Shown in pieces: positions 7,290-33,052 of a DNA stretch of 37,038 nucleotides (position 1 is its first letter; each line of letters starts with the position of its first letter). The notes under the pieces are model-generated. The model did not search any database. It was not told where the DNA came from and saw nothing but the letters and a program-made list of their open reading frames with translations. The position numbers and the translations under genes are program-made. The stretch spans positions 1 through 37,038 of the forward strand of contig JAAYNI010000041.1 of NCBI GenBank assembly GCA_012520995.1, written 5' to 3'. This stretch comes from Candidatus Rifleibacteriota bacterium. GTDB taxonomy: Bacteria; Muiribacteriota; Ozemobacteria; Ozemobacterales; Ozemobacteraceae.

Positions 7290-7315
7290 GATTAGCACTG
7301 TTTTTATTTCAGGAT

Positions 7316-7764: not shown

Positions 7765-8859
7765 CTAGTCAGTGTTTTTAGATGCTCGGGCTTTCTTATA
7801 TTTTTTCAACACTCTCTTGTAAAGACGGCTGTTTTTAGACAGAAGTCTGAGAGCTTCTCTATAGTTCCTGGCAGCTTTTTTGTTCTGCTCTTTTTTCTCA
7901 AATCCGTCAGCTCTTTCTTCATAGAGACGGGCCAATCTTTCTTTAGCCGCTACAAACTGGCTTGCATATATATTTCCCGAGCTCTGGAAAGCCGGCATAA
8001 GAGGGTCTGCTGCAGAGTAAGAAGAGAAAAGAGACAAGGCTTCTTCATAGTCCTTGACAGCAGCTTCCCAGTCCCCGGAACGGGCTTCGTCATCTTCCAG
8101 CTCTTCCTCGTTGCTGATGCGTTCATTTATGGTGTTCTGCATCTGTTGATAGCGTTGTTCTTCTTCCTCTTCCAGAACGCTCGGTTTTATAAAAGCAGCC
8201 TTTTCAAGCTGTCTGTGAGCCGCTCTATATCTATTTTTTTCCAAAGAGCGGGCAATACTGTCCAAATAGGTTTTGAAGACAACCATCTTGGCTTCGTCAC
8301 AAAGTTCGTTTACGTAAAGTTTAAACTTATGATCATCCGGCAGGTTTCTTGCAATATCCAAAGCCGTATCCAATTCAAATATGGCCTCACCATAGTTGCC
8401 AACTTCAATAAGCTGTTCACCGCGTTTAACGTGCGGAGTCAGTCTTCTATACATCTGGCTGTCACGTAATAATATTTTCTCTTTATCCAAAAGAATTTTG
8501 ATTTCTTCAAGCTGTTCCAAATTTTCAGCATCTGTCAGACGCATAGCATCTTCAAAGGCTGCAATAGCGGCTTCCCTGTTTTTATAGGAACTTTCAAGAA
8601 TGCCACGCTCTTTATGAGCCACAGCAAGGTGTTGTTCGGCAACTTTAAGTCTTGAACGGCAATCTTTCAACTTGGTTTCCGCCTGCGAAAGAATAGCGGG
8701 TGTCACGGCTTCAGCTTCTGATTCAGTAAGAAGAGCTTTAAGCAATTCAATAGCCTTAAGCAAAGCTATTCTTTCTCCACCCCAAGAGCCTCTCAGGGAT
8801 TCCTGTTCAGCCTCTGCCATAAATCCTATAGCTTTATTGAGTTTTTCAACATTCTGCAT
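7765..8859 (-). CDS. Cytoplasmic TPR/coiled-coil protein of unknown function
   Basis: The 364-residue helical protein has no signal peptide. Residues 1-125 are predicted coiled helices rich in Glu, Lys and Ala. TPR-like pairs follow at about residues 145-200 (QLIEVGNYGEAIFELDTALD), 255-300 (SGDWEAAVKDYEEALSLF) and 318-350 (EKKEQNKKAARNYREALRLL). An acidic run (EEEEEQ) lies near 235-240. It is the last gene of a three-gene minus-strand operon, 22 bases after its neighbour, with a GAAAGGAAAGAGAG Shine-Dalgarno region. Its role is presumably scaffolding with the secreted TPR protein or the membrane protein upstream, but nothing specific is recognisable. The TAG stop coincides with a dispersed repeat. 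Confidence 0.75.
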   Translation of the reverse strand: MQNVEKLNKAIGFMAEAEQESLRGSWGGERIALLKAIELLKALLTESEAEAVTPAILSQAETKLKDCRSRLKVAEQHLAVAHKERGILESSYKNREAAIAAFEDAMRLTDAENLEQLEEIKILLDKEKILLRDSQMYRRLTPHVKRGEQLIEVGNYGEAIFELDTALDIARNLPDDHKFKLYVNELCDEAKMVVFKTYLDSIARSLEKNRYRAAHRQLEKAAFIKPSVLEEEEEQRYQQMQNTINERISNEEELEDDEARSGDWEAAVKDYEEALSLFSSYSAADPLMPAFQSSGNIYASQFVAAKERLARLYEERADGFEKKEQNKKAARNYREALRLLSKNSRLYKRVLKKYKKARASKNTD

Positions 8860-8881
8860 ATCTGTTTAACTCTCTTTCCTT

Positions 8882-10432
8882 TCAAAGTTCCTTTTTAAGT
8901 CTTTCTGACGCTGTTTTCGAGTCGTAGAAATCAATTCCGTCTTCATCAGTTGAATCAAGCTCTTCGTATGTAGCGCTGGCGCCGCCATAGTTCTCTTGAC
9001 GATACTGAGTATAGCCCAAAAGCGATTTTGCGTCTTCATTAGCAGGGTCTAGCCTAAGAAGTCGATAAATGGTCTTTTCGGCTTCCGAAAAATCTTCGTT
9101 CTGTATGTAAATAAGAGATTTGTTCCACCAGAGAGCAGGCGCCTGAGCATGAGCCGCTTCCAGTTTTTCGAACTCCTGCATAGCCTTTTCATATTCAGCG
9201 TTTTTCATGAGTTCCAAGCCCTTCTGGAAAGCAGGGTTTTTCTTCAACAAAGCGTCCGCATCCTCTAAACTAAGAGAATCTTTGGCAGCAGCCGAAGCTT
9301 CAGCTTTTTTAGCCGCCGAAACATTTTTTCTGGCTTCGGCAATATCTATTTTGCCTTCCGCTTTTGCATATTCCATCAAGGCTACAACATACTTGGCTCT
9401 TGAAGAAGCAGGAAAACCTGCAACAAATGCTTTGCCCCATGCAGAAACTGCATCATGCAACCCCAAAAGAGCTCTATGTCTGATAGACTGGTAGTAGGCT
9501 TCTTCCACGTGAGGACTTGTCTGATGGGCAGTCAAAATAGAATCGTAAAGCTTGCAGGCTTCAAGAATTTCACCAAATTCTGAGGTTTTTGCTGCCAGTT
9601 TCATTATAACATCAGCTTCTCCTGATTTGCCTGAAAGTTCTTTTTGCTGATCTTGCAAAGAGAGAATCTCGGTAATCATTCTAGCCTGCTGATCAGCTGT
9701 AAGAGAGGGCTTATATAAAGCTTCAGCTATAAGAGCTGCCGTATCGGAAGAAACAGATTTTGGAGCTGCGACAGGTTGTTGAACCGGTTGTAAAGAAGGC
9801 TGAGAAGCAGTCTTAGGAGCCTGCGGTTTTTCTGTTTGAGAAGTTCGAGGAGCTTGAGGCTGCTGAACAGCTACTTTCTCAGGTTCGGCTTTTTGAACAG
9901 GAGGCGTTGACGGCTTTTGAGGTTCTTTAGGAGACGGAGACTTTTGAATCGCCTGCTTCTTTACAGGAGCCGGAAGCGCCTGCCCTGCTGTTTTCATTAT
10001 ATTGGCGGCTAAGCTCAGATATGGGCTTTGCGGATTCTCACTCTGGATAATTGAATACCAATTCCGGGCTTTTTCATGATTTCCGGTTGCGGTATGAATA
10101 TGAACCAGCTTATAGCAGGCTTCGGCCTTCTCTTCAGGAGAAACTCCCAAAGCTATGAATTCTTCGAAAAGAGCCGCGGCTTCGGCATAATCGCCATTCT
10201 CTACCTTGGTATCTCCGAGCATGAAAGCAGCGAGACTTTTCTCTGTCTTGTTTGAAGCCAAGTAAAGAGCCTGCTCAAAATTTTCGGCAGCCTCGGCCAA
10301 ATCACCTGAAGCCTTGAGTCTTATTCCTTTTGAAATATAAGTAGTAGCTCTCTCGCGGGCATCAGCCGGCAAAAGAAGTAAAGCAAACAAAGCAAATGCT
10401 GAAAGCAGAACCCAAAATTTAGTTTTTTTCAT
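8882..10432 (-). CDS. Secreted TPR protein with Pro/Gln-rich linker
   Basis: The 516-residue protein starts MKKTKFWVLLSAFALF and has a signal peptide with a probable cleavage after ADA near residue 24. N-terminal TPRs (about 28-140, for example SGDLAEAAENFEQALYLA and NGDYAEAAALFEEFI) are joined by an about 80-residue Pro/Gln/Lys-rich linker to a C-terminal helical block with further TPRs (AEYEKAMQEFEKLEAAH, NEDFSEAEKTIYRLLRLDP). It probably acts in the periplasm as a scaffold. An upstream in-frame start at 10504 is rejected because AGGTGG sits five bases before ATG 10432 and the signal peptide then starts correctly. It overlaps the upstream membrane protein gene by 14 bp, so it is operonic. 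No enzyme domain is seen. Confidence 0.8.
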   Translation of the reverse strand: MKKTKFWVLLSAFALFALLLLPADARERATTYISKGIRLKASGDLAEAAENFEQALYLASNKTEKSLAAFMLGDTKVENGDYAEAAALFEEFIALGVSPEEKAEACYKLVHIHTATGNHEKARNWYSIIQSENPQSPYLSLAANIMKTAGQALPAPVKKQAIQKSPSPKEPQKPSTPPVQKAEPEKVAVQQPQAPRTSQTEKPQAPKTASQPSLQPVQQPVAAPKSVSSDTAALIAEALYKPSLTADQQARMITEILSLQDQQKELSGKSGEADVIMKLAAKTSEFGEILEACKLYDSILTAHQTSPHVEEAYYQSIRHRALLGLHDAVSAWGKAFVAGFPASSRAKYVVALMEYAKAEGKIDIAEARKNVSAAKKAEASAAAKDSLSLEDADALLKKNPAFQKGLELMKNAEYEKAMQEFEKLEAAHAQAPALWWNKSLIYIQNEDFSEAEKTIYRLLRLDPANEDAKSLLGYTQYRQENYGGASATYEELDSTDEDGIDFYDSKTASERLKKEL

Positions 10433-11726
10433 TGCCACCTGTTTCCATTTTACGCATATCTTTATGTATAGAAAAGGATAATGCAAAGAGCAGGACAAGT
10501 TCAAGTATAATAAAATATATGAATGGTCTTTTGTTCAGTGGTTTAACTTCACATTTTTTTTCAAACTGAAGCCACATGGAGTCAGAGTGATTTCCGCGCT
10601 TTGAGAACAAAGGAAGAGATGAGCTGAAAGAATCGCCCGACTTGCCGACAGAAGAGCTTGAAGAATTGCTCTGCGAAGAATACAGTTTGAGACTTGCCCC
10701 GGAATTTGAGCAAAACTGCATCAAATTATCGTTTAAAAGAGGCAGACGCGCTTCAAGACAATAAGAAAGATTTCTCGAAAGATCGCGTACAGGCAAAAAA
10801 ACAGAAACAAAATAAGCCTCTGAATCATTATCCTGGGAAATATCACCAATAAATAAAGATGAACCTTTTTTTATTGCCGCCAAAGCTTCTTTACGGAAAC
10901 GAGAATTATCCGAAAAACTGCCTAATGCTGAAATCTTTTGTCCAGATAAGGTCAAAAGAAAAAGGCTTTTCATATTATAACGGTTTAAAAGAGACGAAAG
11001 AACCTTTTCTGCCTCTTCTAATAAAGCAATTTTCTCAAGCAAAGGCGTTGAAAAGGTTTCAGCGGCGGGTCTCACAGAATTCTGAGAAAGGTTTTGTTCT
11101 CTGTCTATAAATTCTGCTTTCAAAGAGTCTCTGCCCCAAATATCCGAAGAAAACGATTCGAAAAACATGTTTGAAACTCCGGAAAGAAACAATGAGATTT
11201 CTTTGGATGAAACAGGCTTCTTCCGTTTTTCAAAAAGATCCGTGATATGACTGTCGCTTATAAAAAAAGAAGCTAAATTAATCAAAAAAGGAGAATCGGT
11301 TCTGAAGATCAAGGTTCTTAAAAAAGCTTTTGGAAAGTCTATTATCTGTAAAAGACGTTCTTCTTTGTTGTAATTATAACGCTCCAAGTCTTGCAAAAAA
11401 TAATTGAAAGATGTCAGATTTGCGTCAGAAAAATCCTGAGCGGCTTTTATTAAACGAACCGCCATAAGATTCTCCGGCAATTGCTTTAGTTGAGGCAAAG
11501 AAGCAGCAAACGCAAGAGCGGTTTCATAATTTTTAAGGTTATTTTGTATTGCAAGCGCACAAAACTCTGTTTGTTTTAAAAGAGCTGATTCTGCCTCTGA
11601 TTGCCTGACATCTTGCAAAGTTAAAATGCCAAAAAAAAGCAACAAAGTCAGTATTGCAGAGAAAGCGATAAGGCAGATCGCTGCCGTCTTTATTAGCATA
11701 AGAGCAGTAAAAATATTTTTTTTCAT
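10419..11726 (-). CDS. Two-helix membrane protein with extracytoplasmic sensor-like domain
   Basis: The 435-residue protein has an N-terminal membrane helix (about 9-36), an about 360-residue extracytoplasmic region, and a second helix at about 400-420 followed by 15 cytoplasmic residues. The layout resembles Cache-type receptor ectodomains: a long helical stretch, then a segment with SLFLLTLSGQKISALGSF and SEAYFVSVFLPVRD strands. There is no kinase, HAMP or GGDEF output. A Ser-rich stretch lies at about 350-375. It heads the operon with the two TPR proteins, which could carry the output. No clear Shine-Dalgarno site precedes ATG 11726. I do not recognise the family by name. Confidence 0.75.
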   Translation of the reverse strand: MKKNIFTALMLIKTAAICLIAFSAILTLLLFFGILTLQDVRQSEAESALLKQTEFCALAIQNNLKNYETALAFAASLPQLKQLPENLMAVRLIKAAQDFSDANLTSFNYFLQDLERYNYNKEERLLQIIDFPKAFLRTLIFRTDSPFLINLASFFISDSHITDLFEKRKKPVSSKEISLFLSGVSNMFFESFSSDIWGRDSLKAEFIDREQNLSQNSVRPAAETFSTPLLEKIALLEEAEKVLSSLLNRYNMKSLFLLTLSGQKISALGSFSDNSRFRKEALAAIKKGSSLFIGDISQDNDSEAYFVSVFLPVRDLSRNLSYCLEARLPLLNDNLMQFCSNSGASLKLYSSQSNSSSSSVGKSGDSFSSSLPLFSKRGNHSDSMWLQFEKKCEVKPLNKRPFIYFIILELVLLFALSFSIHKDMRKMETGGNEKN

Positions 11727-14194: not shown

Positions 14195-15100
14195 ATGTCT
14201 TTCCAATTGCTGGAACAATTCCTGAATTATCTCACTGTCGAAAAAGGCTTGAGAGAGAAGACCATTGCGGCTTATCGCTCTGATCTCGAAGACTGGATTA
14301 AATTCGCCGAAGAACGCGAAAGAAACATAATAAAACCAGGCGTAGAAAACCTGCTCAGTCTTTACAGCATTGAAATGCACGATCAAGACTTCTCGCCCAG
14401 AACCATGGCCAGAAAAACCTCCGCTTTGCGCGGCTTTTACAGGTTTTTGCAAAGAGAATCCATAATAGATTTCGATCCCATGGCTTACATTGAGAGACCC
14501 AAAACAGGCAGACCTCTCCCTAAAGTCTTATCCAGAGATGAGATGGAATTAATTCTTGAACAGCCTGATACATCCAAGCCTCTTGGAATCAGAGACAAAG
14601 CCATGATGGAACTGCTCTATGCAACAGGAATACGCGAATCAGAACTCATTGATATTCAAATAGGCGATATCAATTTCCAAGGCGAATTCATATCCGTAAA
14701 AGGAAAAGGCGGCAAAGAAAGAGTCGTGCCTGTCGGCGATCTGGCTCTTGAAGCGGTGCAAAGCTACCTTTTCAAAGCAAGAAACACTCTCTGCCAAGAC
14801 ATAACCGAAAGAACCATGTTTCTGAACTCCAGAGGCAATCCTCTTTCTCGCATGGGAGTTTGGAAAATTATCAGAAAATACGCTTTATCCGCCGGTTTAG
14901 GGAAAGATGTTTCACCCCATATTTTCAGACATTCCTGCGCGACTCATATGCTTGAGGGCGGAGCAGGCATAATGGCTGTACAAGAAATGCTTGGACACGC
15001 AGACATATCAACAACCCAAATTTACACACATCTTTCTACCAAAGAGCTCAGAAACATACATAAAAGTTCTCATCCCAGATCGACAAAAGAAAAAAAATGA
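14195..15100 (+). CDS. xerD: XerC/XerD-type tyrosine recombinase
   Basis: The 301-residue protein has an N-terminal SAM-like core-binding domain (1-100) and a C-terminal catalytic domain. The catalytic residues are Arg147 (ATGIRESEL), Lys171 (VKGKGGKER), His242/Arg245 (PHIFRHSCATHML), His268 (LGHADISTTQIYTH) and nucleophile Tyr277. Length and spacing match XerD almost residue for residue (E. coli R148, K172, H244, R247, H270, Y279, from memory). It resolves chromosome dimers at dif. Whether it is XerC, XerD or a sole XerH-like enzyme cannot be decided here. CGGAGC lies 5 bases before the ATG. It overlaps the next gene by 4 bp. It is full length with no phage genes nearby. Confidence 0.9.
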   Translation: MSFQLLEQFLNYLTVEKGLREKTIAAYRSDLEDWIKFAEERERNIIKPGVENLLSLYSIEMHDQDFSPRTMARKTSALRGFYRFLQRESIIDFDPMAYIERPKTGRPLPKVLSRDEMELILEQPDTSKPLGIRDKAMMELLYATGIRESELIDIQIGDINFQGEFISVKGKGGKERVVPVGDLALEAVQSYLFKARNTLCQDITERTMFLNSRGNPLSRMGVWKIIRKYALSAGLGKDVSPHIFRHSCATHMLEGGAGIMAVQEMLGHADISTTQIYTHLSTKELRNIHKSSHPRSTKEKK

Positions 15101-18100
15101 AACACCTCTATTGGCTTGCCAAGAAAATTAACTCTAACAGAGCGGCGGCAACCGCTATGGCAGTTTTTTGCCTGATTGCCGCTGTTTTTATGACGGCAAG
15201 CCTGAACAGAGCAAAAGCCTCGGACAGTCTTCAAACAGAGCTGCAAGAAGAAAATTCAAATGCTGAAAACATCATTTCTGATGAAACTGAAAAAGACACA
15301 AAGAATTCTGTCGCAGAATCCGCCGAACTTTTAACTGAAGAGCATAAAGCGCAACTTAGAGGCTCAACATCAGGAGGACACGGAAAAGATGTTTTTCTGG
15401 TAGAACCTTCCGATGCTCAATTTTATGAAGGCGGATACGCCTATGATATAACTGTCGAACCTATAGAAGTTGAAATATCATACAGCAAACCCGCTGATGT
15501 AAAAACAACTCAAGAAACAGAACCCGAAATAGCAACTCCTGCCGAAGATGCTATTTCATATGAAACCTCTGCTGACAAAGTCTTCACAGAAGATATTGCT
15601 GACCAGGAAAAGCCGACAAAAACCTCTACGCCCGGCGAAGAAGGCACAATAGGCAGCGATACCGCCACTCTGGCATATCAAGACGACTTTATAGAGCTTG
15701 AGATTATAGATCTGCCGGAAGAAACAGAAGACATATCACTTTCAGAATTGGATGAAAAAGAACTGGCGGAACGGCAAAAAGACTTAGAAATAATTCAAAA
15801 GAGCATGGGCGACGAAGAAAGCCAATCCGAAGCTCTTAAACAAGCCAAGCTCTTCTGGGGTGAAACAGAAAAACCCAAGAAAAAAGGCTACAATCTGAAC
15901 ATATCAGGAACCAAAACCTTCGATCTTAAGAGATCAGATATTTCCGGCGATGTAGGACACTTCATTTCCAAATATCCGGACGCGCACCCTGGAAGCAAGA
16001 TAGACCAGAGCCTTCACTTGGAAATAAATGGAAACATCACAGAAAACGCGACAGTTCACGCCGTCTTGGATGACACCGAAACAGAGGACAGAAGATTCAC
16101 TGTAGATATAAACACGCCTAAATGGCATCTGGTCTTGGGTGATTTTCAATTCAAAATAGACAACGCCGAACTTTCCGTCTTTCCGAAAGAAACTCGAGGC
16201 ATACTGGCTCACGGCCGTTTCACCAAAAATTACGAGGCCATGTACATATTCGCTCAATCCAAAGGCGTATCTAGACGCGAGCAATTCAGAGGAGCAGGTC
16301 AACAGCAAGAATACAGATTGCAGGGGTCTCCTGTTTTACAAAACTCGGAAAAAATCACAATTGACGGAAGACCTATAACCAGGGGCATAGATTACTTAAT
16401 AGACTATGACGACGGTCTCATCAAATTTTTGCCTAAAGTTCTGCCTATTGAAATAACCTCTTGGATAGTAGTCGAATATGAACTTACCAAAGATGCCATG
16501 CCATTCAAACGAAATATGTATGGCACAAGACAAATATATAAAAAGGACGAAAACCGAAAACTGGCTCTCACTTGGTTGAAGGAAGTTGACGACACCTCCG
16601 GCAAAAACAAAACCGACAGTGATACAGCAAGTTCCACAAGCCAGATTACTCCTATGAGCCATGACTTGCTCTTTGGCGATTTCCATTGGAAACTTTCCGA
16701 GCAGTTCTCATTAGAAGGGGAAATAGCCAAGTCAAAATTCGAAGCGGACAAAAAGAATCTGCCAAGCGCTCCCGAAACTAAAAAAGCCTATGCGGGAAGA
16801 ATAGAACTGACAGGAGAAAGCTCCCGAATGAAAGCAGATTTGTCGCACAAACGCTCTGAGGCAGGGTTCAAAGCAATCGGCAGAGAAAAGGGAATAATAG
16901 AAGTGGGCGAAAGAGGTCCAATGGATGACGTGCGTCTGACAAACATGCGTTTGACTTTTAAACTAAGCAACTTCTGGAGCATTTTTGCAGAAGGCGAAAA
17001 AACCGAAACAAACCTGGATGAAAACCCGGCTGAATCCAGCGTTGATTTGGAGCTGAGAAACGCAGGCATTATCTTTGAACGTGAAAAACACAAAGAAAGA
17101 TTCGAAATACGCAAAGGCAAGCAGATTGACAGAGAATTATCTGCTACAAAACAAGGCGATCTGACTAAAAACACGGCTGCCGCTGTATATGACAGAACTT
17201 TCGGAGCAGTTAAAACTCAAGCCAAATACGATCTTGTGGAATATGTCGATGCCATAAACATAGCCTCAGGCTCAAAAGTCATTCAAACCTTTGCCAACGC
17301 ATCTTCCAGAAAAGCCGGCAACTTCAGCTGGACCGCTTCTGTCTCCGAGATAAGGGTCGATGACGGATTCGTAAGCGAAGGGCCAAGATCTGAAACCAAC
17401 AACTGGACTTTGGATGTCTCTTACGATCCCTCACGCAAATTCTCTGCCAGAGGCGAATTCCAATTCAGACGCGAAGATGACTTTTATAATAATTCCAGAA
17501 ATGACAGCGCCATAATCGACTCAAACATAAAATATGAGCCCACTCAAGACATAAAAACGCAACTTAAATACAAGATAGAAAACACCTCGAAAATCACAAG
17601 AGATCCTTCATTGGATCCCGTAGATTATATAGTTCCTGACAGTCTGCCTACTTCAGAAAAGGAAAAAACTGAGGTTATAAACAGGTTTGAAAACCCGGTC
17701 GAGAAAATCACCGCAAGCTTTATGACAGACTATCGCATTACAGACAGAATCTCAGCCTATGTGGATTTGAGAAGACGCGAGATCAATGACAAGCACACAA
17801 AGCTGAATATCTCTGAAATAGACAGACAAACCTATGAACTTAAGTTTACTCCTCTGAAAAATATAATGGTCATAGCGGAATATGACAAAGGTTACAGCAT
17901 AAACAATGACAGCAAAAGCCGTTTAGACGACACAGGGAAGCTTTTGCAAATCAACAGTGAGCTGAAAAATGGCTACAAGCTTGAACTTTCATATGAGATT
18001 TACGAAGAAGACGACATTTACGCCAGCCAAAACGACAAAACGGTCAAAAGCAAGATTTTGGATCTTCAACGGGCATTATCTCCAAAACTCACTGTTGGAA

Positions 18101-18408
18101 TGGCTTTGCAGCACGACAACATAAGCTCGGCAACCCCCTCAAAAGAGTTTGAAAAACGCGTCTTTGCAACCTACACCCCGGCAAACTTCAATAAGCGATA
18201 TAAACTCTTCGCAAATCACACTGATATAGAAAACGTTCAGAAAAAAGAAGATGGAAGCAGATATGAATACGGCCTCTCCTTCTCGCAATTTATTGGCGCC
18301 GATACAATGCTTGACGGCGAAATTAAACGAGTGCATTCCGACAAAACCGCCCTTGGCGATGCCTATTCAGCTACAGTTATAAACGCCAAAATGGTTATCA
18401 CATTCTGA
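15097..18408 (+). CDS. Large putative outer-membrane beta-barrel protein
   Basis: The 1103-residue protein has an N-terminal signal segment (about 16-41, with cleavage near AKA-S) and an acidic low-complexity region (45-260, rich in Glu, Thr and Ser). From about 263 to the end it consists of alternating beta strands ending in a hydrophobic strand with terminal Phe (NAKMVITF), typical of outer-membrane proteins. At about 418-445, KITIDGRPITRGIDYLIDYD followed by DGLIKF resembles the strand repeat seen in SprA-like and other large outer-membrane proteins. It may be a translocon, porin or structural barrel. ATG overlaps the recombinase stop (ATGA), so it is co-expressed with it. The 3' end overlaps the convergent lpxK by 11 bp. 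The family is unknown to me. Confidence 0.75.
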   Translation: MKHLYWLAKKINSNRAAATAMAVFCLIAAVFMTASLNRAKASDSLQTELQEENSNAENIISDETEKDTKNSVAESAELLTEEHKAQLRGSTSGGHGKDVFLVEPSDAQFYEGGYAYDITVEPIEVEISYSKPADVKTTQETEPEIATPAEDAISYETSADKVFTEDIADQEKPTKTSTPGEEGTIGSDTATLAYQDDFIELEIIDLPEETEDISLSELDEKELAERQKDLEIIQKSMGDEESQSEALKQAKLFWGETEKPKKKGYNLNISGTKTFDLKRSDISGDVGHFISKYPDAHPGSKIDQSLHLEINGNITENATVHAVLDDTETEDRRFTVDINTPKWHLVLGDFQFKIDNAELSVFPKETRGILAHGRFTKNYEAMYIFAQSKGVSRREQFRGAGQQQEYRLQGSPVLQNSEKITIDGRPITRGIDYLIDYDDGLIKFLPKVLPIEITSWIVVEYELTKDAMPFKRNMYGTRQIYKKDENRKLALTWLKEVDDTSGKNKTDSDTASSTSQITPMSHDLLFGDFHWKLSEQFSLEGEIAKSKFEADKKNLPSAPETKKAYAGRIELTGESSRMKADLSHKRSEAGFKAIGREKGIIEVGERGPMDDVRLTNMRLTFKLSNFWSIFAEGEKTETNLDENPAESSVDLELRNAGIIFEREKHKERFEIRKGKQIDRELSATKQGDLTKNTAAAVYDRTFGAVKTQAKYDLVEYVDAINIASGSKVIQTFANASSRKAGNFSWTASVSEIRVDDGFVSEGPRSETNNWTLDVSYDPSRKFSARGEFQFRREDDFYNNSRNDSAIIDSNIKYEPTQDIKTQLKYKIENTSKITRDPSLDPVDYIVPDSLPTSEKEKTEVINRFENPVEKITASFMTDYRITDRISAYVDLRRREINDKHTKLNISEIDRQTYELKFTPLKNIMVIAEYDKGYSINNDSKSRLDDTGKLLQINSELKNGYKLELSYEIYEEDDIYASQNDKTVKSKILDLQRALSPKLTVGMALQHDNISSATPSKEFEKRVFATYTPANFNKRYKLFANHTDIENVQKKEDGSRYEYGLSFSQFIGADTMLDGEIKRVHSDKTALGDAYSATVINAKMVITF

Positions 18409-23498: not shown

Positions 23499-23538
23499 CC
23501 GCAGGTTTTGCACACAAAGCCTGCGGGTTTTGTCTTTT
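23499..23538 (+). terminator. Rho-independent terminator of the RRM gene
   Basis: CCGCAGGTTTTG (23499-23510) pairs with CAAAGCCTGCGG (23515-23526) at 11 of 12 positions plus a wobble, with a CACA loop. GTTTTGTCTTTT follows. It lies about 95 bases after the RRM stop. Confidence 0.9.
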
Positions 23539-23692: not shown

Positions 23693-23722
23693 TTGACATA
23701 AGCCTCTCTCTTGCCTTAAAAT
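23693..23722 (+). promoter_or_regulatory. Sigma70-type promoter of the five-gene operon
   Basis: TTGACA (23693-23698) is a consensus -35 box. TAAAAT (23717-23722) follows after 18 bases, or TTAAAA after 17. It is about 27 bases before the TTG start of the first gene and directly after a dispersed repeat, leaving a very short leader. Confidence 0.7.
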
Positions 23723-23748
23723 ATCACTGCTGAAGGGGGGAACCGCAA

Positions 23749-25299
23749 TTGTCTGAAAACAACCCTAATTTTGATATTTCCGTTTATCTGTCGCAAATGC
23801 AAACAGACGAGGAGATCGTCCTCGCAAATTTGGCCTTTGATCCTCCTATGATAGGCAGACAGCTCATAGAAAACCATTTCACCGAAGACGATTTTCAAGG
23901 CTCTCACGCAAACAAAGTATTGCTCTCTGCCATGCTTGAAACATTCGAAGAAAGCGGCAATATTACCTTAGCCGATCTCACAGCAAAACTTTTAAGCAAA
24001 AAGTCAGGAAAAAAAACTCTGCTGGATATTGCAGGAGGCGAAGAAAGAATCAACGGATTAATGATATCCCCTTTCAGCAAAGATGGAGTTCGGCAAGAAG
24101 AAGACATAGAGGAAACCCTTGAACGAATCAGAGCCAGAAATGTCAGGCACTCCGCCAGAAGACACCTGCTGCACTATTCCGAAAGCATGCTCTCAGAGGA
24201 AAAAGACCATCTGGAAATCCTCAACGACTGTATCCGCAAACTCAGAGAAGTTCTGCTGAAAGGCAGTCATACTTACATCAGCACCATAAAGCGCAATTTC
24301 AACGCCATGGAAGAAATGGTGGCAGACAGGCGACTTGCCAACAAGCATTATTTAGGCCTTAAAACCAACTTTCCCCTTTTAATGGATAACCTGAGCGGAT
24401 TCCAAAAAGAATACTATCTAATCACAGCTGGTGCAGGCATGGGCAAATCCACTTTCGCGACTCAGCTAGCTTGGGACTTGGTAACACTGAACCCCTACTT
24501 GAACGTCATTTTCTTCACATTGGATCTGAATCGTTTTGACGTTTTAACAAAAATAACAGCTCAAGCAGGAAAAGTCCCGATAGACTATGTGAAAAACCCT
24601 TTCTCCGTCAGACCCGACCTTGAAGATCAACGCCTAAAAGCCATAGAAGCTGTCAAAAAAGTAGATGACCGCCTTACAATAGTTGACGAATCAACAGGCC
24701 GTCTTTCAATAGATGATATAAAACGCCAAACAAAGAGAATTCGTTTAGAACGCGGCGGCGAAGTCGCAGTCATAATAGATCCCATTTTCAAAATACAGCA
24801 CAAAAACCAGCATGCTATCACTTTCAACGACTCTTCAAATTTTCTCTCCTCAGAACTCAAAAGCCTGAGCGCAGTCGAAGGAGTCACAGTCATAGCTACC
24901 GCAGGCTTGCCGAAAGCAGTAAGCAACAGGCGGCCGGTTAAAGAAGACTTGGCCGAAATAATGGGACTTCTTTATGATCCTTACGCCGTTTTCTTCCTAT
25001 ACTGCGATTACCTTAACGATTTCGAAACACCTTTTCTTGAATGGGAATGGGGCAAAGAAGACAGCTTCATGATTCCAATCACAGAAGCTTTTGTGGCCAA
25101 AAATAAAATGGGACACACAAACGCCAGCATTTTTTTCCGATATTACGAAGCTTATTCCAAGTTCGAAGAATGTGCCCCGCAAGAAGTAGAAAACTATGCA
25201 GCTATGGTGGAAAACCTGGCCAAATACAAAGAATACAAAGACCTGCGTAAAAATGACCCGGCAGGCGACAGTGACTACATTAGGAAAGAAGAGTTCTGA
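23749..25299 (+). CDS. DnaB-family RecA-like ATPase, divergent
   Basis: The 516-residue protein has an N-terminal helical domain like the DnaB N-domain (residues about 15-110, QTDEEIVLANLAFDPPMIG), a linker helix and a RecA-like core. Walker A is AGAGMGKST (227-235, Lys233) and Walker B ends at Asp344 (VAVIIDP). The C-terminal AKNKMGHTNASIFFRYYEAY and SKFEE correspond to the DnaB KNRNGPTG and YTRFE block. Loops differ strongly from replicative DnaB and the context is a signalling/scaffold operon, so it is likely a specialised paralogue rather than the replicative helicase. It starts at TTG 23749 with AGGGGGG 8 bases upstream. Two bases separate it from the TPR gene. Confidence 0.8.
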   Translation: MSENNPNFDISVYLSQMQTDEEIVLANLAFDPPMIGRQLIENHFTEDDFQGSHANKVLLSAMLETFEESGNITLADLTAKLLSKKSGKKTLLDIAGGEERINGLMISPFSKDGVRQEEDIEETLERIRARNVRHSARRHLLHYSESMLSEEKDHLEILNDCIRKLREVLLKGSHTYISTIKRNFNAMEEMVADRRLANKHYLGLKTNFPLLMDNLSGFQKEYYLITAGAGMGKSTFATQLAWDLVTLNPYLNVIFFTLDLNRFDVLTKITAQAGKVPIDYVKNPFSVRPDLEDQRLKAIEAVKKVDDRLTIVDESTGRLSIDDIKRQTKRIRLERGGEVAVIIDPIFKIQHKNQHAITFNDSSNFLSSELKSLSAVEGVTVIATAGLPKAVSNRRPVKEDLAEIMGLLYDPYAVFFLYCDYLNDFETPFLEWEWGKEDSFMIPITEAFVAKNKMGHTNASIFFRYYEAYSKFEECAPQEVENYAAMVENLAKYKEYKDLRKNDPAGDSDYIRKEEF

Positions 25300-25301
25300 C
25301 A

Positions 25302-27191
25302 ATGCACACCACTGAAGTAGAAATGCTTTTGGAAAAAGCGGCAAAAGCCCAAGAAAATGGCAGCGTAGAGCTTGCCGTTATTGAATACGAAAAGCTGCTG
25401 GAAATAAACCCTGACGAGCTGGATGCTCTAAGAAACCTTGCAAAGCTCTACAGCTTCAAGGATCAGCCACGCAAATCCGCAGAGCTTCTAATAAAAGCAG
25501 CCAAAGTTGCCCCCGACAATCCTGAAGTTCTCACTTCCGCAGGAGAAATTTTGGCAAAACTCGGCAACTACGAAGAAGCGCTTGAACATTATAAAGAGGC
25601 GGAAATACTGCGTCCCGATGATATTTACATAAACAGGTCAATAGCCAATATTTACAGAGCTATGGGCAAGTTCAAAGATGCAGCCGCCAAACTGCTCTCA
25701 AAACCGGATGCTCTCAAAACCGACTATGACGAACTGCTTGAACTTGCGGGAGATCTCAAGATGCTCGCCAGATACGAACAAGCTCTTGAGCTGTTTCAAG
25801 ACGCATCAACCTTGAGACCCGATGAACTGCCTCCTCTCAAAGGCATCTACGACTGCCAAATAAAACTGGGCAACAAAGACAAAGCCACAGCCGCATTAAA
25901 AAAAGCCGTATTGCTTAAGAGAAACGATCAAACCATTATAGCCAAACTTGCCGAAACTTATGCAACAGACGGCCAATTCGCAGAGGCTGCAAAAACCCTT
26001 AAAGACGGCATAGAAAATATAGGAGACGCTCCCATTCTCAAGCAGAAATTGGAAGAAATCTCCAGAAGATTGCCCGTTCTCAAAAAGAAGAATGCTCCGA
26101 GCTTGCAGATCGGCGAAGAAGTATGCGAGACGGAAGTCTTTGACATACTTGACTCGCTATACGCAGGCGATATCGTTCCCAAAAGAGCCCTCTACGAACT
26201 GGAAATGCTAAGACATAAGCATCCTGGCGACTCACTGGTCGTAAGAGAGCTGGCTGCTCTTTATTTGCAATCAGGCGCGGCTGACAGAGCTGCGGAAATT
26301 TATTCGGAGCTGGTCTTGACCTATCCGGTCATACCAAAATTCAGAGTAGATCTCTCCAGAGCTTTGGCCGCATCCGGTGACATAGACGCAGCCACAGCAA
26401 CCATCACCTCGGCAAAAGAAGAACTTGGAAATCTCCATGAACTTGAAATAGCCCATATAGAGCTTTGTATTCTCAACCGCAATATGCCGGAAGCCGACCG
26501 CAGACTTGAAGCCTACCTGAACGAATTGCCTGACGACCCCCACGCCCTTTTTCTCTATGCCTACACAGCTCTCAGGCGCGGCAAATTCCGCATATCCGAG
26601 ATGTCTTTCGAAAAGATTCTTACTCTGGGCAAACAAGACGAAGAAGTCTTGCTCTGGTATTCAAGACTCGCTTTGCTTACGGGCGAGCACGACAAAGCCA
26701 TCAAAGCATGGAGAACTCTTGACGACGGTTTCACAAGTCTTGTGGAAGTAGTTTCCGTAGCAGAACTCCTTATAGCTGCAGGACGATTTGACGAAGTTCC
26801 CGCAGAACTCGCCAAAATCGGAGAATATGCTCCAAACTTTATAGAAGATCATCTGCTTTTTGCAAAAGCCTTCTTTTATGCCGCCGATTTCAATACTTCC
26901 CAGAAAGAGCTGGAATTTGTTTTAAAAATGTCAAACGAACATCCTGAAGCCCTTGCCATGGCAGCTATTTCAGCTCTTATAAAATTCAAGGTCGCAAAAT
27001 TTTCAGTCTGCTGGAGACAAGCCTTACAAATAGACTCTCTCTACGCAATACTGCCCTTCGTAGTATTGAAAGAAACCCTTGGCTTTTCCCATCGCGAAAA
27101 AATCAAAAATGAAATCAGAAAAATGCTTCGCATAGCGACACTGCCTCAAGTAGCCAGAGAACGTCTCATGGCCTTGGGCGATATTTTTTAA
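25302..27191 (+). CDS. TPR-repeat scaffold protein
   Basis: The 629-residue protein is built almost entirely of tetratricopeptide repeats. Clear units include NGSVELAVIEYEKLLEINPD (about 18-37), LGNYEEALEHYKEAEILRPD (about 87-106), LARYEQALELFQDASTLRPD (about 156-175), TDGQFAEAAKTLKDGIENIG (about 222-241) and more in the C-terminal half. No signal peptide or membrane segment is seen, so it is cytoplasmic. It is the second gene of the operon, starting two bases after the ATPase stop. It probably holds partners of the ATPase or the FHA protein together. No enzymatic motif is present. Confidence 0.85.
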   Translation: MHTTEVEMLLEKAAKAQENGSVELAVIEYEKLLEINPDELDALRNLAKLYSFKDQPRKSAELLIKAAKVAPDNPEVLTSAGEILAKLGNYEEALEHYKEAEILRPDDIYINRSIANIYRAMGKFKDAAAKLLSKPDALKTDYDELLELAGDLKMLARYEQALELFQDASTLRPDELPPLKGIYDCQIKLGNKDKATAALKKAVLLKRNDQTIIAKLAETYATDGQFAEAAKTLKDGIENIGDAPILKQKLEEISRRLPVLKKKNAPSLQIGEEVCETEVFDILDSLYAGDIVPKRALYELEMLRHKHPGDSLVVRELAALYLQSGAADRAAEIYSELVLTYPVIPKFRVDLSRALAASGDIDAATATITSAKEELGNLHELEIAHIELCILNRNMPEADRRLEAYLNELPDDPHALFLYAYTALRRGKFRISEMSFEKILTLGKQDEEVLLWYSRLALLTGEHDKAIKAWRTLDDGFTSLVEVVSVAELLIAAGRFDEVPAELAKIGEYAPNFIEDHLLFAKAFFYAADFNTSQKELEFVLKMSNEHPEALAMAAISALIKFKVAKFSVCWRQALQIDSLYAILPFVVLKETLGFSHREKIKNEIRKMLRIATLPQVARERLMALGDIF

Positions 27192-27224
27192 AAACTCGCA
27201 AAACAAAAAAAAACATAGCTAATC

Positions 27225-28562
27225 ATGAAAAAAAACAAACTAAAATTAGACCCAAAAAACAAAGAGCTTCTCGCAAAAGCTCTCAAAGATGCCGAAAAAC
27301 TGAACAAAAAATCTGCCAGAACCTTTATTACAAACTTCATAGATCTGGGAGGCTACTCAGTGGCGGTATTGCTGGACAGTCTCCATCTAATGCCCTCTCA
27401 TATGAGAAAATATGCGCTGGAAAACCTCAGCTACTTTTTTCTGTATGGCGGCTCCCACACAAAGAAACTTTTAAAAAGACTTATAATCGCGATAAAACGC
27501 TCAAAACCCTATTACAGACCTCAAGTCTTGGCAATGCTGGCAGACCTGCTATTCAGATCTCAATTCGAATGCTCGGATAAAAGAGCTTTGAGAATAGCCA
27601 ACAGCCTAAGCAGCGAAATAGAATCGCAATTCCGAAAAAGCACGAAACTCAGCCAAGCCGCAGCTCCCTTGGCATTTGCCTACAGGGCGGAACTGGAGTT
27701 CCTGCTGCCTCACATGCTGAAAGCCCTCAACAATTCTCTTAGCCAAGAAAGCTCCTTCTCTGAATACCTTTTTATTGAAGACGCAATTACAGGCATACAA
27801 AACATAGGCGGCAAAGAACTTCTCAAGTTTTTGGCCAATCCGACCTCAAAACAAGCCCTGGTTCACTTGAAAATGGCTTGGCGCAACCGCGATCCCGACC
27901 TTCTGAAGAAAATACTCAGAATAGCCAAACAACTAAGCGAAGATTTCCCTAAAGCTCTTGTCTCCTTCGCCTCCCAATCCGAAATGGCCGTTTCTTTCTA
28001 TCCTTTCCTGACAGAAGCAGCCGAAAGCGAAGAGCCTGAAGTGGCCTCAATGGCAAAAAAAGCCCTCCAAAAAGACATGGAAAGCAATTTCTCCATGCTC
28101 GCTTCCTGCCTAAATGAAGAATCTCCTGAAGCCAGAATCGTCGCCATCAACTCTATGAGCGGATTCCCAAAAGAGCTTTCAGGCGAACTGCTAACAGCCG
28201 TTGCAGGAAATATAAAGGAACCCTTCTCTGTCAGAGTTGCAGCCATAGAAGCTCTTTATTATCAGAAAAATGCTAATGCTATCGAAAAAATATTAACATT
28301 ACCGGAAATTCCGCCGCAAATTAAATCCAGAGCCAAAGTCTATCATGCAATGGCAAAACCTCGCAAATCTGCTATTAAAACTCTGACAAAATACTATTTA
28401 AACTCCCCGAAAAATGAAGCGGACGATCTGGAATTCTACTTATCAACATATTCTGCGCGAAGCGATTTGCCCTACTTAAACAAATTAGCTGAAACACTGC
28501 CGATACAAAACAAGAGCAGAATAGAGAAAATCATTTCCTCTGCAAAAGGAAGAAACAAATGA
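27225..28562 (+). CDS. HEAT-like helical-repeat protein
   Basis: The 445-residue, Lys-rich, all-helical protein has paired helices of about 30-40 residues through its length (for example YYRPQVLAMLADLLFRSQ, EEPEVASMAKKALQKDM, ESPEARIVAINSMSGFP, PFSVRVAAIEALYYQKN), as in HEAT or PBS-lyase repeats. It has no signal peptide. Such solenoids bind proteins; no catalytic residues are evident. ATG 27225 follows a 33-base gap without a clear Shine-Dalgarno site. The 3' end overlaps the next gene by 4 bp. It is the third gene of the operon. No specific family name is recognised. Confidence 0.72.
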   Translation: MKKNKLKLDPKNKELLAKALKDAEKLNKKSARTFITNFIDLGGYSVAVLLDSLHLMPSHMRKYALENLSYFFLYGGSHTKKLLKRLIIAIKRSKPYYRPQVLAMLADLLFRSQFECSDKRALRIANSLSSEIESQFRKSTKLSQAAAPLAFAYRAELEFLLPHMLKALNNSLSQESSFSEYLFIEDAITGIQNIGGKELLKFLANPTSKQALVHLKMAWRNRDPDLLKKILRIAKQLSEDFPKALVSFASQSEMAVSFYPFLTEAAESEEPEVASMAKKALQKDMESNFSMLASCLNEESPEARIVAINSMSGFPKELSGELLTAVAGNIKEPFSVRVAAIEALYYQKNANAIEKILTLPEIPPQIKSRAKVYHAMAKPRKSAIKTLTKYYLNSPKNEADDLEFYLSTYSARSDLPYLNKLAETLPIQNKSRIEKIISSAKGRNK

Positions 28563-29998
28563 AGATTTCTATTACTGACAAACAAGGAAACGTTCTATAC
28601 GAAGGAAGCCCGAAACTCACCGACGACGGCATCACAATAGGCACCTCGCCTGATGCCGGAATAAGAATAACAAAAATGGGCATAGCATCTGAACAGATAC
28701 GCCTCAGATTTAACTCGGAAGGCGATTTGACACTCCATGATATACAGAGTCCTTTCGGGACAAAAGTCGACGGCAAAACAATAAAACCCGGATTCATAAC
28801 CGTTATTCCGGAAGAGTGCATCATAGAAATGTCAGAGGATGTCTTCGTGACCCTTTCCAAAGAAGCAAGCGTCACATCAGAAAAAAATTATTCCGAAACA
28901 TTCTTTCCATATTTTCTGGCGAGAAACGAAACCTATGTGCGCGAAGCTTTTGATGACATAAGAACAAAGATTCCGCGCGACTATTATTACGCTCTCTCAT
29001 CTCTTGAAGGCGAGCTGGTCGGAAAAATAAGAGAACTTTCGGCAGTTCTGGATATAAGTTATGCCATAAACGCCATAGCCAGTTTCTCAAGACTTTTAGA
29101 TTTCACTCTGGAAATGTCCTTAGCCGTCACTGGCGCCGAAAGAGCATTAGTATTGCTCTTCAACGAAGATCTTAACAGGCTTGAGCCGGCAGCGGACATG
29201 AATTTCTCTCAAAAAGACATAAACAGAGAAATGAGAGCAATCTGGCCGATAATCAAAAAAACTTTCGAAACCGGAACCGCAGCAATCGGACCCGCCAGAA
29301 ATTTTCCCTCGGACAGCCCTTCAACAACATTAGCAGAAACAGGCATAGAGTCAATCGCCGTTTTGCCCCTGCAAGAATTTTCCGCGATAATAGGCGTTCT
29401 TTACATTGACTCAAAGCAATTGTCTCCTTTGCTCACGGTCAAGTCAGAACAGCTCCTCAAGGTTTTCGCATCACAAGCCACCACAGCTATAACCAGAGCC
29501 AAACTTCTGCACGAGGCCACTGCGGATCCTGTTACAGGAGCAGCCAACCAAACATTTCTTATGCGCCGCCTCGCAGAAGAATACCATCGAGCAATTCGCC
29601 ACGAAACCCCTCTTTGCGTTCTCTTGGGCGAGATCGACGGTTTTTCCTCCATGGAGAGAATATACGGACAAGCAGGAGTAAAGCGTCTGCTGAAAAACAT
29701 CGCGGCTATTATAGCAGGCGAAATGAGAATACATGATTTGGCAGCCAGGACAAGAAACGATCTTATGGCAATAATTCTCCCCGAAACGCCTCTGGAAGGC
29801 GCAAAAACAGTAGCGGAAAAACTGAGAAAAACAATTGCCAACACAAGATTCAGAGTAGGCGACAGCTCTGTCGGATTGACTATGTCTTTCGGAACTGCCA
29901 TATTGCTAAAGTCGGCAAAAAAACCCTCAGATCTCCTCACTATGGCCTCAAAATCTCTTGAAAGAGCCAAAGAACTGGGCGGAAACAGAGTCATATAA
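28559..29998 (+). CDS. FHA-GAF-degenerate GGDEF protein
   Basis: The 479-residue cytoplasmic protein has an FHA-like domain (1-100, DDGITIGTSPDAGIRI, SPFGTKVDG), a GAF domain (about 175-320) and a C-terminal GGDEF-fold domain (about 322-479, beginning ADPVTGAANQTFLMRRL). The catalytic GGDEF is replaced by RNDLM (399-403), and the Mg-binding Asp and substrate Asn-Asp of the usual DIDxFKxxND are replaced in EIDGFSSMERIYG. RIHD (390-393) remains exactly five residues before the motif, which is the I-site spacing. So it is probably not a cyclase but may bind c-di-GMP. The FHA domain would read phosphothreonine; no Ser/Thr kinase is in the window. It starts with ATGA overlap. Confidence 0.87.
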   Translation: MKISITDKQGNVLYEGSPKLTDDGITIGTSPDAGIRITKMGIASEQIRLRFNSEGDLTLHDIQSPFGTKVDGKTIKPGFITVIPEECIIEMSEDVFVTLSKEASVTSEKNYSETFFPYFLARNETYVREAFDDIRTKIPRDYYYALSSLEGELVGKIRELSAVLDISYAINAIASFSRLLDFTLEMSLAVTGAERALVLLFNEDLNRLEPAADMNFSQKDINREMRAIWPIIKKTFETGTAAIGPARNFPSDSPSTTLAETGIESIAVLPLQEFSAIIGVLYIDSKQLSPLLTVKSEQLLKVFASQATTAITRAKLLHEATADPVTGAANQTFLMRRLAEEYHRAIRHETPLCVLLGEIDGFSSMERIYGQAGVKRLLKNIAAIIAGEMRIHDLAARTRNDLMAIILPETPLEGAKTVAEKLRKTIANTRFRVGDSSVGLTMSFGTAILLKSAKKPSDLLTMASKSLERAKELGGNRVI

Positions 29999-30016
29999 AA
30001 AAGTGAGAAAGAAAAC

Positions 30017-31636
30017 ATGCTGGACAACAAAAAATTAAACGAATTAGAAAAACTCATAGGAATTAAAACGCCGCAAACTCCTAAAGGCGGCATAGAAAAC
30101 TTGGCAAAAGATATAGTCAAAGGAGCCGACAAAAAACAAAATTCTCAAACCGAGACTCCTCACGACCGTTACTGGGAAATCCAGAAACTTTTCATAGCCA
30201 TGCACGACAAGCATGGAAAAGACTTCGCCTTTTTCCTCGCAGATCTCCTAGACATATTAATCGACGGAGAAATGCAGCATAAATTTGTCATGGAGATGTT
30301 CGACGCAAAAACAAAAAACATGAAACAGATAGCAGCAAAAGCTGCTGACGGAACCTCTCAAGAAAAAGAGCGAGCCAGAAAACTGCTCAACCAGACGATG
30401 CAAATAGCGAAAGCTGAAGTTGGCGGCAGCAAAAGAGTTTTCACAACACATTTCATAAAGAGAAAACGCCTTATTACAGAAATCTTTTTAAACACTCTGG
30501 AATATGAAACCTGCAAAAAGCTGATTAAACATATAGAAAACACCTGCTCAGAAATACTCGAAGATGAAATTCCTGAAACCAGGGAAAAACGCTTGGAAAC
30601 CCTGAACGAAATACTCGACAATCTCCGCTACGAAACATGTGAGAAGGATGTCTACAAAATATGGGCTATTCTGGATGCAGACAATTTTAAATATCTTGAA
30701 GAAGTCTTCTTCAAGAGCAAAGAAATCTACCTCGTAAGACCCGATTTTTATGATGACTTGGATAAAACCTACAGAGAAGGCAAAAATCTTATAAAACTGC
30801 TCCTTAAAGATCTTGAGGATTCGGAAGACCTGGACTCCGCAAAACAAGAGATTTATATTTCCTACTTGCAGGATATCAGAGACATATACACGCATCATCA
30901 CTTCGTGCTTAAGCACTACTACTCTACCAGACCTAGAAAAAGCAAAAAAGAGCTGGAGGATGAAACAGACGAGTTCAATGAAAAAATTTCCGAACTTCGC
31001 GAGCAAATAGCAGAAATGCGCGAAGAAAACGAAGAACTTCAAATTTCCTGCGATCAAGCAAAAGCTTCGGAAAGATTCTGCAAAGCCGAATGTGCCGACT
31101 TGGAGCAAAAACTCAAAAAATATAATCCGGGAGAAGTCAGAAAACAGCTGAATTCGGCAGAAGCCAAAGTCAACGCCATGGAAAAAGAGCTTAAAGCAAC
31201 CCTCCTGGAAGATGCCGAGTTGAGAACAGACTTCATGGAGCTGGCCGAAGAAAACCAAAAGCTGCTTGAAGAACTCCAAAACCTTAACGCCTTGCCCGAT
31301 GAATCAGCATACTCAGTCAATGATATGCTGAAAAACAAAAGAGTCGTAATTTTCGGAGGCGTAGGAAGAGATCACTATGCCGCAGTCCTGAAAGAAGCTG
31401 GAGTAAAATACGAAGACTACGAATGGTATGACGGCTACCACACGATCAGCCAAGCCAGAACAGCTGAAATAGTCGGAAGAGCCGATTTAATAGTAGTAGT
31501 CACAAGCTATGCCGGACATCTCCTTCTTTACCAAGTAAGACCCTGCATAGAAAAACACCAGCTTTTCCTGAAAATTCACAGCAGCGGCGCAGGCTCGCTC
31601 AAAAAAGAAATAAGAAACCACTATTCAAAAAAATAA
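30017..31636 (+). CDS. Coiled-coil protein with C-terminal DUF2325 domain
   Basis: The 539-residue protein has an N-terminal helical region (1-300) of unknown type, a long coiled coil (about 308-420, KISELREQIAEMREENEELQ) and a C-terminal DUF2325 Rossmann-like domain (about 436-535). The latter shows KRVVIFGGVGRDHYAAVLKE, GYHTISQARTAEIVGRADLI and SSGAGSLKKEI. DUF2325 has no settled function; the GGVGRDH loop looks like a nucleotide or phosphate binding turn. It is the last gene of the five-gene operon, 18 bases after the FHA gene. Enolase follows 108 bases later with its own promoter. No membrane segment is present. Confidence 0.8.
   Translation: MLDNKKLNELEKLIGIKTPQTPKGGIENLAKDIVKGADKKQNSQTETPHDRYWEIQKLFIAMHDKHGKDFAFFLADLLDILIDGEMQHKFVMEMFDAKTKNMKQIAAKAADGTSQEKERARKLLNQTMQIAKAEVGGSKRVFTTHFIKRKRLITEIFLNTLEYETCKKLIKHIENTCSEILEDEIPETREKRLETLNEILDNLRYETCEKDVYKIWAILDADNFKYLEEVFFKSKEIYLVRPDFYDDLDKTYREGKNLIKLLLKDLEDSEDLDSAKQEIYISYLQDIRDIYTHHHFVLKHYYSTRPRKSKKELEDETDEFNEKISELREQIAEMREENEELQISCDQAKASERFCKAECADLEQKLKKYNPGEVRKQLNSAEAKVNAMEKELKATLLEDAELRTDFMELAEENQKLLEELQNLNALPDESAYSVNDMLKNKRVVIFGGVGRDHYAAVLKEAGVKYEDYEWYDGYHTISQARTAEIVGRADLIVVVTSYAGHLLLYQVRPCIEKHQLFLKIHSSGAGSLKKEIRNHYSKK

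Positions 31637-31732: not shown

Positions 31733-33052
<1,320 letters not shown>

Follow-up and report, generated by a model that had tools for sequence, protein, structure and literature searches.

Two conserved gene modules meet in a five-gene array of a Candidatus Rifleibacteriota genome

A compact five-gene array

The window (the whole 37,038-nucleotide stretch of DNA analysed here, from a Candidatus Rifleibacteriota genome) contains five closely spaced genes on the forward strand, designated A to E. Gene A (23749–25299) has a TTG start codon with AAGGGGGG upstream and encodes a DnaB-derived RecA-fold ATPase (Pfam DnaB_C, 3.6e-22). It is followed by genes for a TPR solenoid protein (B, 25302–27191; TPR_19, 3.2e-32) and a HEAT-repeat solenoid (C, 27225–28562; HEAT_2, 1.8e-6). 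Protein D (28559–29998) comprises a degenerate FHA domain (5.5e-6), a GAF domain (GAF_3, 7.9e-10) and a GGDEF domain (2.5e-25) that is degenerate, with RNDLM in place of GGDEF, and retains an intact I-site, RIHD. Protein E (30017–31636) has a helical N-terminal domain, a long coiled coil and a C-terminal Rossmann-like DUF2325 domain that scores above the Pfam cut-off (PF10087; 1e-8, 35.7 bits against 33.6). An earlier reading made from the letters alone (the sequence-only reading) had reported these five frames in this order with gaps of 2, 33, −4 and 18 bases, all of which we reproduce. It had also placed the products in the cytoplasm, in agreement with the absence of an N-terminal hydrophobic segment from all five proteins.

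The array is preceded by a sigma-70-like promoter, TTGACA-18-TAAAAT (23693..23722, +), in line with the same reading. This site matches 11 of 12 positions of the consensus, the only basis of the assignment, and is the top match within 10.4 kb. Because the same scan returns 22 sites, against 12.6 ± 3.2 in shuffled sequence, the promoter is only suggestive. A terminator-like stem (23499–23526, +) 3′ of the upstream RRM gene marks the left limit of the operon, and we infer that the five genes are transcribed as one unit. Genes C and D share four bases (ATGA), making an assembly join at their boundary unlikely. An enolase gene (31745–33052, +) directly follows E after 108 bases; in genus g5 (G011 and G017) NFACT-A-B-C has an enolase gene about 3–4 kb on its upstream side, which may be a vestige of a shared gene order.

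Elsewhere the window carries a gene for a YhgA-like putative transposase (PF04754; 607–1614, +) and, on the reverse strand, a row of two TPR-protein genes and a third open reading frame without a Pfam match (7765–11726). A tyrosine recombinase gene (PF00589, 8e-49) overlaps by four bases an open reading frame of 1103 residues that has no Pfam match, and together (14195–18408, +) they resemble a mobile or recombination unit made up of two genes.

Gene order in related genomes

The sequence-only reading had treated the five genes as a single machine, an interpretation that does not survive comparison with related genomes, in which the order splits into A-B-C and D-E. A, B and C form an unbroken row in each of the other 21 family genomes, mostly with gaps of −10 to +55; B comes directly after A throughout, and C, the third gene, is confined to this family. 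D stands immediately before E wherever both can be read, and the pairing holds, at gaps of −23 to +82, in all 18 genomes in which D and E are complete. E is found in 23 of 24 family genomes, and no E was found in other families of the phylum. The two modules adjoin in the window only: adjacency is excluded in 19 of the 21 relatives and could be hidden by contig ends in the other two (G009 and G015). They lie about 50 kb apart in G020. A conserved five-gene system is thus ruled out by the gene order in 21 relatives, and we consider the two-module structure very likely. The array is real and operon-like, but was misread as a single system.

D-E has conserved neighbours of its own. Among the 18 genomes in which D and E are both intact and downstream sequence is present, 13 have genes for an ECF sigma factor and an anti-sigma-like protein after the pair, the sigma gene lying directly after E in 12 of these and behind a SpoIIE gene in one. 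The anti-sigma-like label reflects gene position and a Cys-containing N terminus, and a Pfam scan of this protein gives no match. HAMP-SpoIIE phosphatase genes lie upstream of D in several genomes. Beside D-E in the window there is no sigma, anti-sigma or SpoIIE gene, and the window's genome lacks a close orthologue of the D-E-linked ECF sigma factor (best match 34%). Because the modules adjoin in the window alone, are kept apart in 19 of 21 relatives and have lost the linked sigma orthologue here, we conclude that the five-gene set is a lineage-specific join, observed once.

It could nevertheless be argued that the five proteins form one ancient regulated machine in which D, through c-di-GMP and phosphothreonine, and E directly control an A-B-C ATPase complex. 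The tight spacing with its C/D overlap and the universal or nearly universal presence of both modules in the family point this way, as does G014, in which a single contig carries both in like orientation, separated by about 22 kb. The exclusion of adjacency in nearly all relatives, the separate neighbourhood of D-E and the loss of phosphothreonine contacts from the FHA domain (below) make this improbable.

We favour the account in which two ancient modules were brought under one promoter in the window's genome, to which we assign a probability of roughly 50%. This genome (2.84 Mb, 96% complete) is the sole representative of its genus in the compared set, in a family whose members range from 2.4 to 8.3 Mb. 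A competing possibility, which fits the favoured account except in its last step, is that rearrangement in a smaller genome produced the join as a neutral by-product and that the modules are functionally unlinked. The long branch of the window proteins, the synteny around the modules, in which the window differs from relatives, and the missing sigma orthologue agree with a neutral join, whereas the common strand, the four-base overlap and the intactness of both blocks do not; we judge its chances to be somewhat short of even.

The same genes occur in relatives that are metagenome-assembled genomes of Candidatus Riflebacteria, Ozemobacter and Rifleibacterium, with more distant carriers among Wallbacteria, Muiribacterium and assemblies labelled Cloacimonadota. 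One peptide pattern, TP[FL]LEW[EQD]W, served to scan 84,980 species, and relatives that lack it would have escaped; a search of genome contigs with a single E sequence gave no matches. An anti-phage role was considered and set aside, since PADLOC yields just weak generic TPR, HEAT and GGDEF matches. In the literature on DUF2325 and on Riflebacteria and Ozemobacter we found no account of these genes, neither of the conserved DnaB-derived ATPase trio nor of the D-E pair.

Protein A, a DnaB-derived ATPase

Protein A has a strong match in 36 of 37 phylum genomes, in one copy each (the G027 copy is split over two contig pieces, and G030 lacks A), and is a nearly universal ATPase of the Riflebacteria–Wallbacteria–Muiribacterium lineage. 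The sequence-only reading had allowed that A might prove to be the organism's only DnaB. It is not: the same genome encodes an ordinary, canonical DnaB (G000:C41:58303–59070) as well as RadA and DciA. The latter was detected in seven of eight genomes, making A unlikely to be a missing helicase loader. Weak IstB/DnaC matches on frames of about 450–510 residues, close to DciA in several genomes, are probably DnaA. A second DnaB relative, a DnaB_C protein of about 800 residues whose N terminus bears a zinc-ribbon-like Cys pair and which also has a long stretch of low complexity, is encoded at L002 (G000:C92:153136–156924), and matches of this size occur in many family genomes.

The profile alignment of A spans the full length of DnaB, including the N-terminal domain, which is present in A of the window's family and absent in families f2, f3, f4, f7 and f8. 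An AlphaFold model (pLDDT 82) matches the DnaB structure 4ESV in Foldseek (E=7e-23), while A scores 95.9 bits against the DnaB equivalog TIGR00665, for which the cut-off is 385. We read 32 A proteins against the genome's own DnaB, with residue roles as in 4ESV. All 32 keep the Walker A GK[ST] and the Walker B Asp. All 32 also have Asp for the catalytic Glu (SLEM), KNK for the Arg finger KxR, and have lost the Arg of the DNA-binding RESG loop, where the Gly is not kept at its position either; the genome's own DnaB has the Glu, and KQR at the finger. The motif-3 Gln is missing from A. KNK is reminiscent of the trans-acting lysines of RecA. It also stands in place of the RadA motif KNRFG, which reads KNRYG in the L004 sequence. 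A has a complete DnaB fold, but these changes suggest that it is probably not a helicase and that hydrolysis would be slowed by the Glu-to-Asp change. The Walker motifs are not proof of activity, and ATPase activity of A is a prediction.

In 20 of 20 family members the last residues of A are [ED]E[FL] (-EEF in the window), preceded by a linker of low conservation; this suggests a docking peptide. Docking on B is a weak proposal, because A of family f5 has a similar acidic-hydrophobic tail and no TPR gene after it. We also considered mimicry of the SSB tail; the SSBs read here end in acidic residues followed by VPF or IPF, so that the likeness to EEF is a resemblance only. Identity to family orthologues is 51–63% for A, 32–42% for B and 23–27% for C. 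A is the constrained member, and the scaffolds B and C drift.

The neighbourhood of A differs between families. In f3, f7 and f8 A is flanked immediately by ligA on its upstream side and by a TPR gene on its downstream side (L144, L145, L143, L170, L147, L148 and L141). In the window's family ligA is absent from beside A, and the commonest upstream neighbour is NFACT/RqcH, at about half of the loci; the DNA link of A may therefore be only ancestral. The sequence does not bear out the machine on DNA suggested by the sequence-only reading, the DNA-loop Arg being lost across the A family, but with ligA-A-TPR as the order in three other families a DNA context stays possible.

These observations bear on two readings of A-B-C. 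If A were a working DNA motor, RadA-like or an accessory helicase using other DNA contacts, B and C would load or recruit it at repair forks. DnaB homology along the full length, the ligA-A-TPR order and the invariant Walker motifs are consistent with such a motor, but the loss of the DNA-loop Arg, loop Gly and motif-3 Gln, the replaced catalytic Glu, the missing N-terminal domain in f2, f3, f4, f7 and f8, and the DnaB, RadA and DciA already encoded render it unlikely. A-B-C could instead act on proteins as a KaiC-like or chaperone-like ATP switch, for example on the side of ribosome quality control. The lost DNA contacts, the TPR and HEAT partners, the NFACT neighbour and weak KaiC-family matches of A relatives argue for this second reading. 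NFACT is not a universal neighbour, however, and lies 1–2 kb from A in several genomes; together with the ligA link in other families this leaves action on proteins a minority possibility.

In the favoured two-module account, A would be a DnaB paralogue turned non-helicase ATPase, probably an ATP-dependent ring or filament in which trans-acting Lys residues (KNK) replace the Arg finger. Its role would be that of an ATP switch, assembling on a protein partner or remodelling it, with B and C as its scaffolds and the conserved -EEF tail, past the variable linker, as the likely docking peptide. The ligA-A-TPR order in the three other families would point to action at replication or repair sites. 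We offer this ATP-switch role of A-B-C tentatively.

The D-E pair and known systems

The c-di-GMP reader that the sequence-only reading saw as possible in D holds up. The I-site RxxD is present in all 17 genomes listed, and R390 and D393 are invariant over 14 aligned rows; since GGDEF domains commonly have this Asp anyway, the information lies in the Arg alone. Genera g3, g5 and g10 retain an intact GGDEF motif, g2 and g7 have altered versions (ASDEF and SGEEF, of which SGEEF may still work), and g1, g4, g6, g9 and g11 have lost it, so its decay probably took more than one loss on the tree. A GAF domain precedes GGDEF in D, as it does in PelD. From these motifs we consider D probably to be a c-di-GMP receptor, with binding of the nucleotide the better bet. 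The phosphothreonine reader proposed for the FHA domain is weakened: of 20 orthologues, three have the Arg of 'GR' and none has the Asn of 'NG', and D of the window has neither. The window's genome also encodes a PilZ protein, and about 21 kb from D the window carries a CHASE2-GAF-GGDEF protein (4995–7298, −) with an intact GGEEF and an RETD I-site, a probable active diguanylate cyclase by its motifs.

Protein E is 539 residues long, with a mean column identity of 61% that peaks in the DUF2325 domain. Its model (pLDDT 76, pTM 0.46) consists of a helical N-terminal domain, a pair of long helices and a head that is Rossmann-like, and no PDB or viral structure matches the fold at E<0.001. Open frames of about 620–690 residues in several family genomes (L030, L031 and L032) give weaker matches to the DUF2325 part of E and may represent a paralogous family.

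Under the favoured account, D would sense a small ligand (GAF) and c-di-GMP (I-site) without synthesizing c-di-GMP, and would hand its state to E, with its coiled coil and Rossmann-like DUF2325 head. The output in most relatives would probably be the adjoining ECF sigma/anti-sigma pair; some genera also have SpoIIE phosphatases close by. In the window, where the sigma pair is gone and D-E stands behind A-B-C, the c-di-GMP readout probably accompanies the ATPase module and may tune it. Because the join is known from one genome, the case for a functional link between them depends on a single event, and we regard such a link as doubtful. The fullest version, in which DnaB-derived non-helicase ATPases of a lineage-wide, near-universal class build, with TPR/HEAT scaffolds, a core complex located at sites of replication or repair, and this complex is under c-di-GMP control through D-E in the window's lineage, would be a long shot.

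The A family is the most interesting part of these results, as a near-universal gene without an assigned role in a group of uncultured bacteria. A protein that keeps the whole DnaB body and has lost the DNA-gripping parts would show a replicative helicase fold reused as a switch. D-E provides a natural series in which a cyclase loses its active site yet keeps its c-di-GMP site, a useful test case for the evolution of receptors out of enzymes. An interaction of the modules in the window's genome, if it exists, would link c-di-GMP to a core ATPase complex.

Among known systems, A shares with the DnaB replicative helicase (PF03796, TIGR00665; 4ESV) the full-length fold, N-terminal domain and both Walker motifs, but differs in the catalytic Glu, Arg finger and DNA-loop Arg in 32 of 32 proteins and coexists with a true DnaB. 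RadA/Sms, a DnaB-type branch-migration motor (PMC5512693, PMC4786428), is likewise a RecA-fold ATPase found besides DnaB, but in a Pfam scan A has neither a zinc finger nor a Lon-like domain, and a genuine RadA coexists with it. A degenerate GGDEF domain with an intact I-site is a known type of effector, and D resembles the c-di-GMP receptors PopA and PelD (PMC5052742) in its inactive GGDEF motif and intact RxxD; D, whose c-di-GMP binding is predicted, adds an N-terminal degenerate FHA domain and an obligate DUF2325 partner. E has its C-terminal domain in common with DUF2325 proteins (PF10087) such as Cj1384 (PMC9426514), but Cj1384 is a single-domain protein of 104 residues, whereas the far longer E adds a helical domain and a long coiled coil. 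Finally, the neighbourhood of D-E in most relatives resembles SpoIIE-phosphatase and ECF sigma/anti-sigma regulatory clusters, in contrast to the window, where D-E stands beside the ATPase trio.
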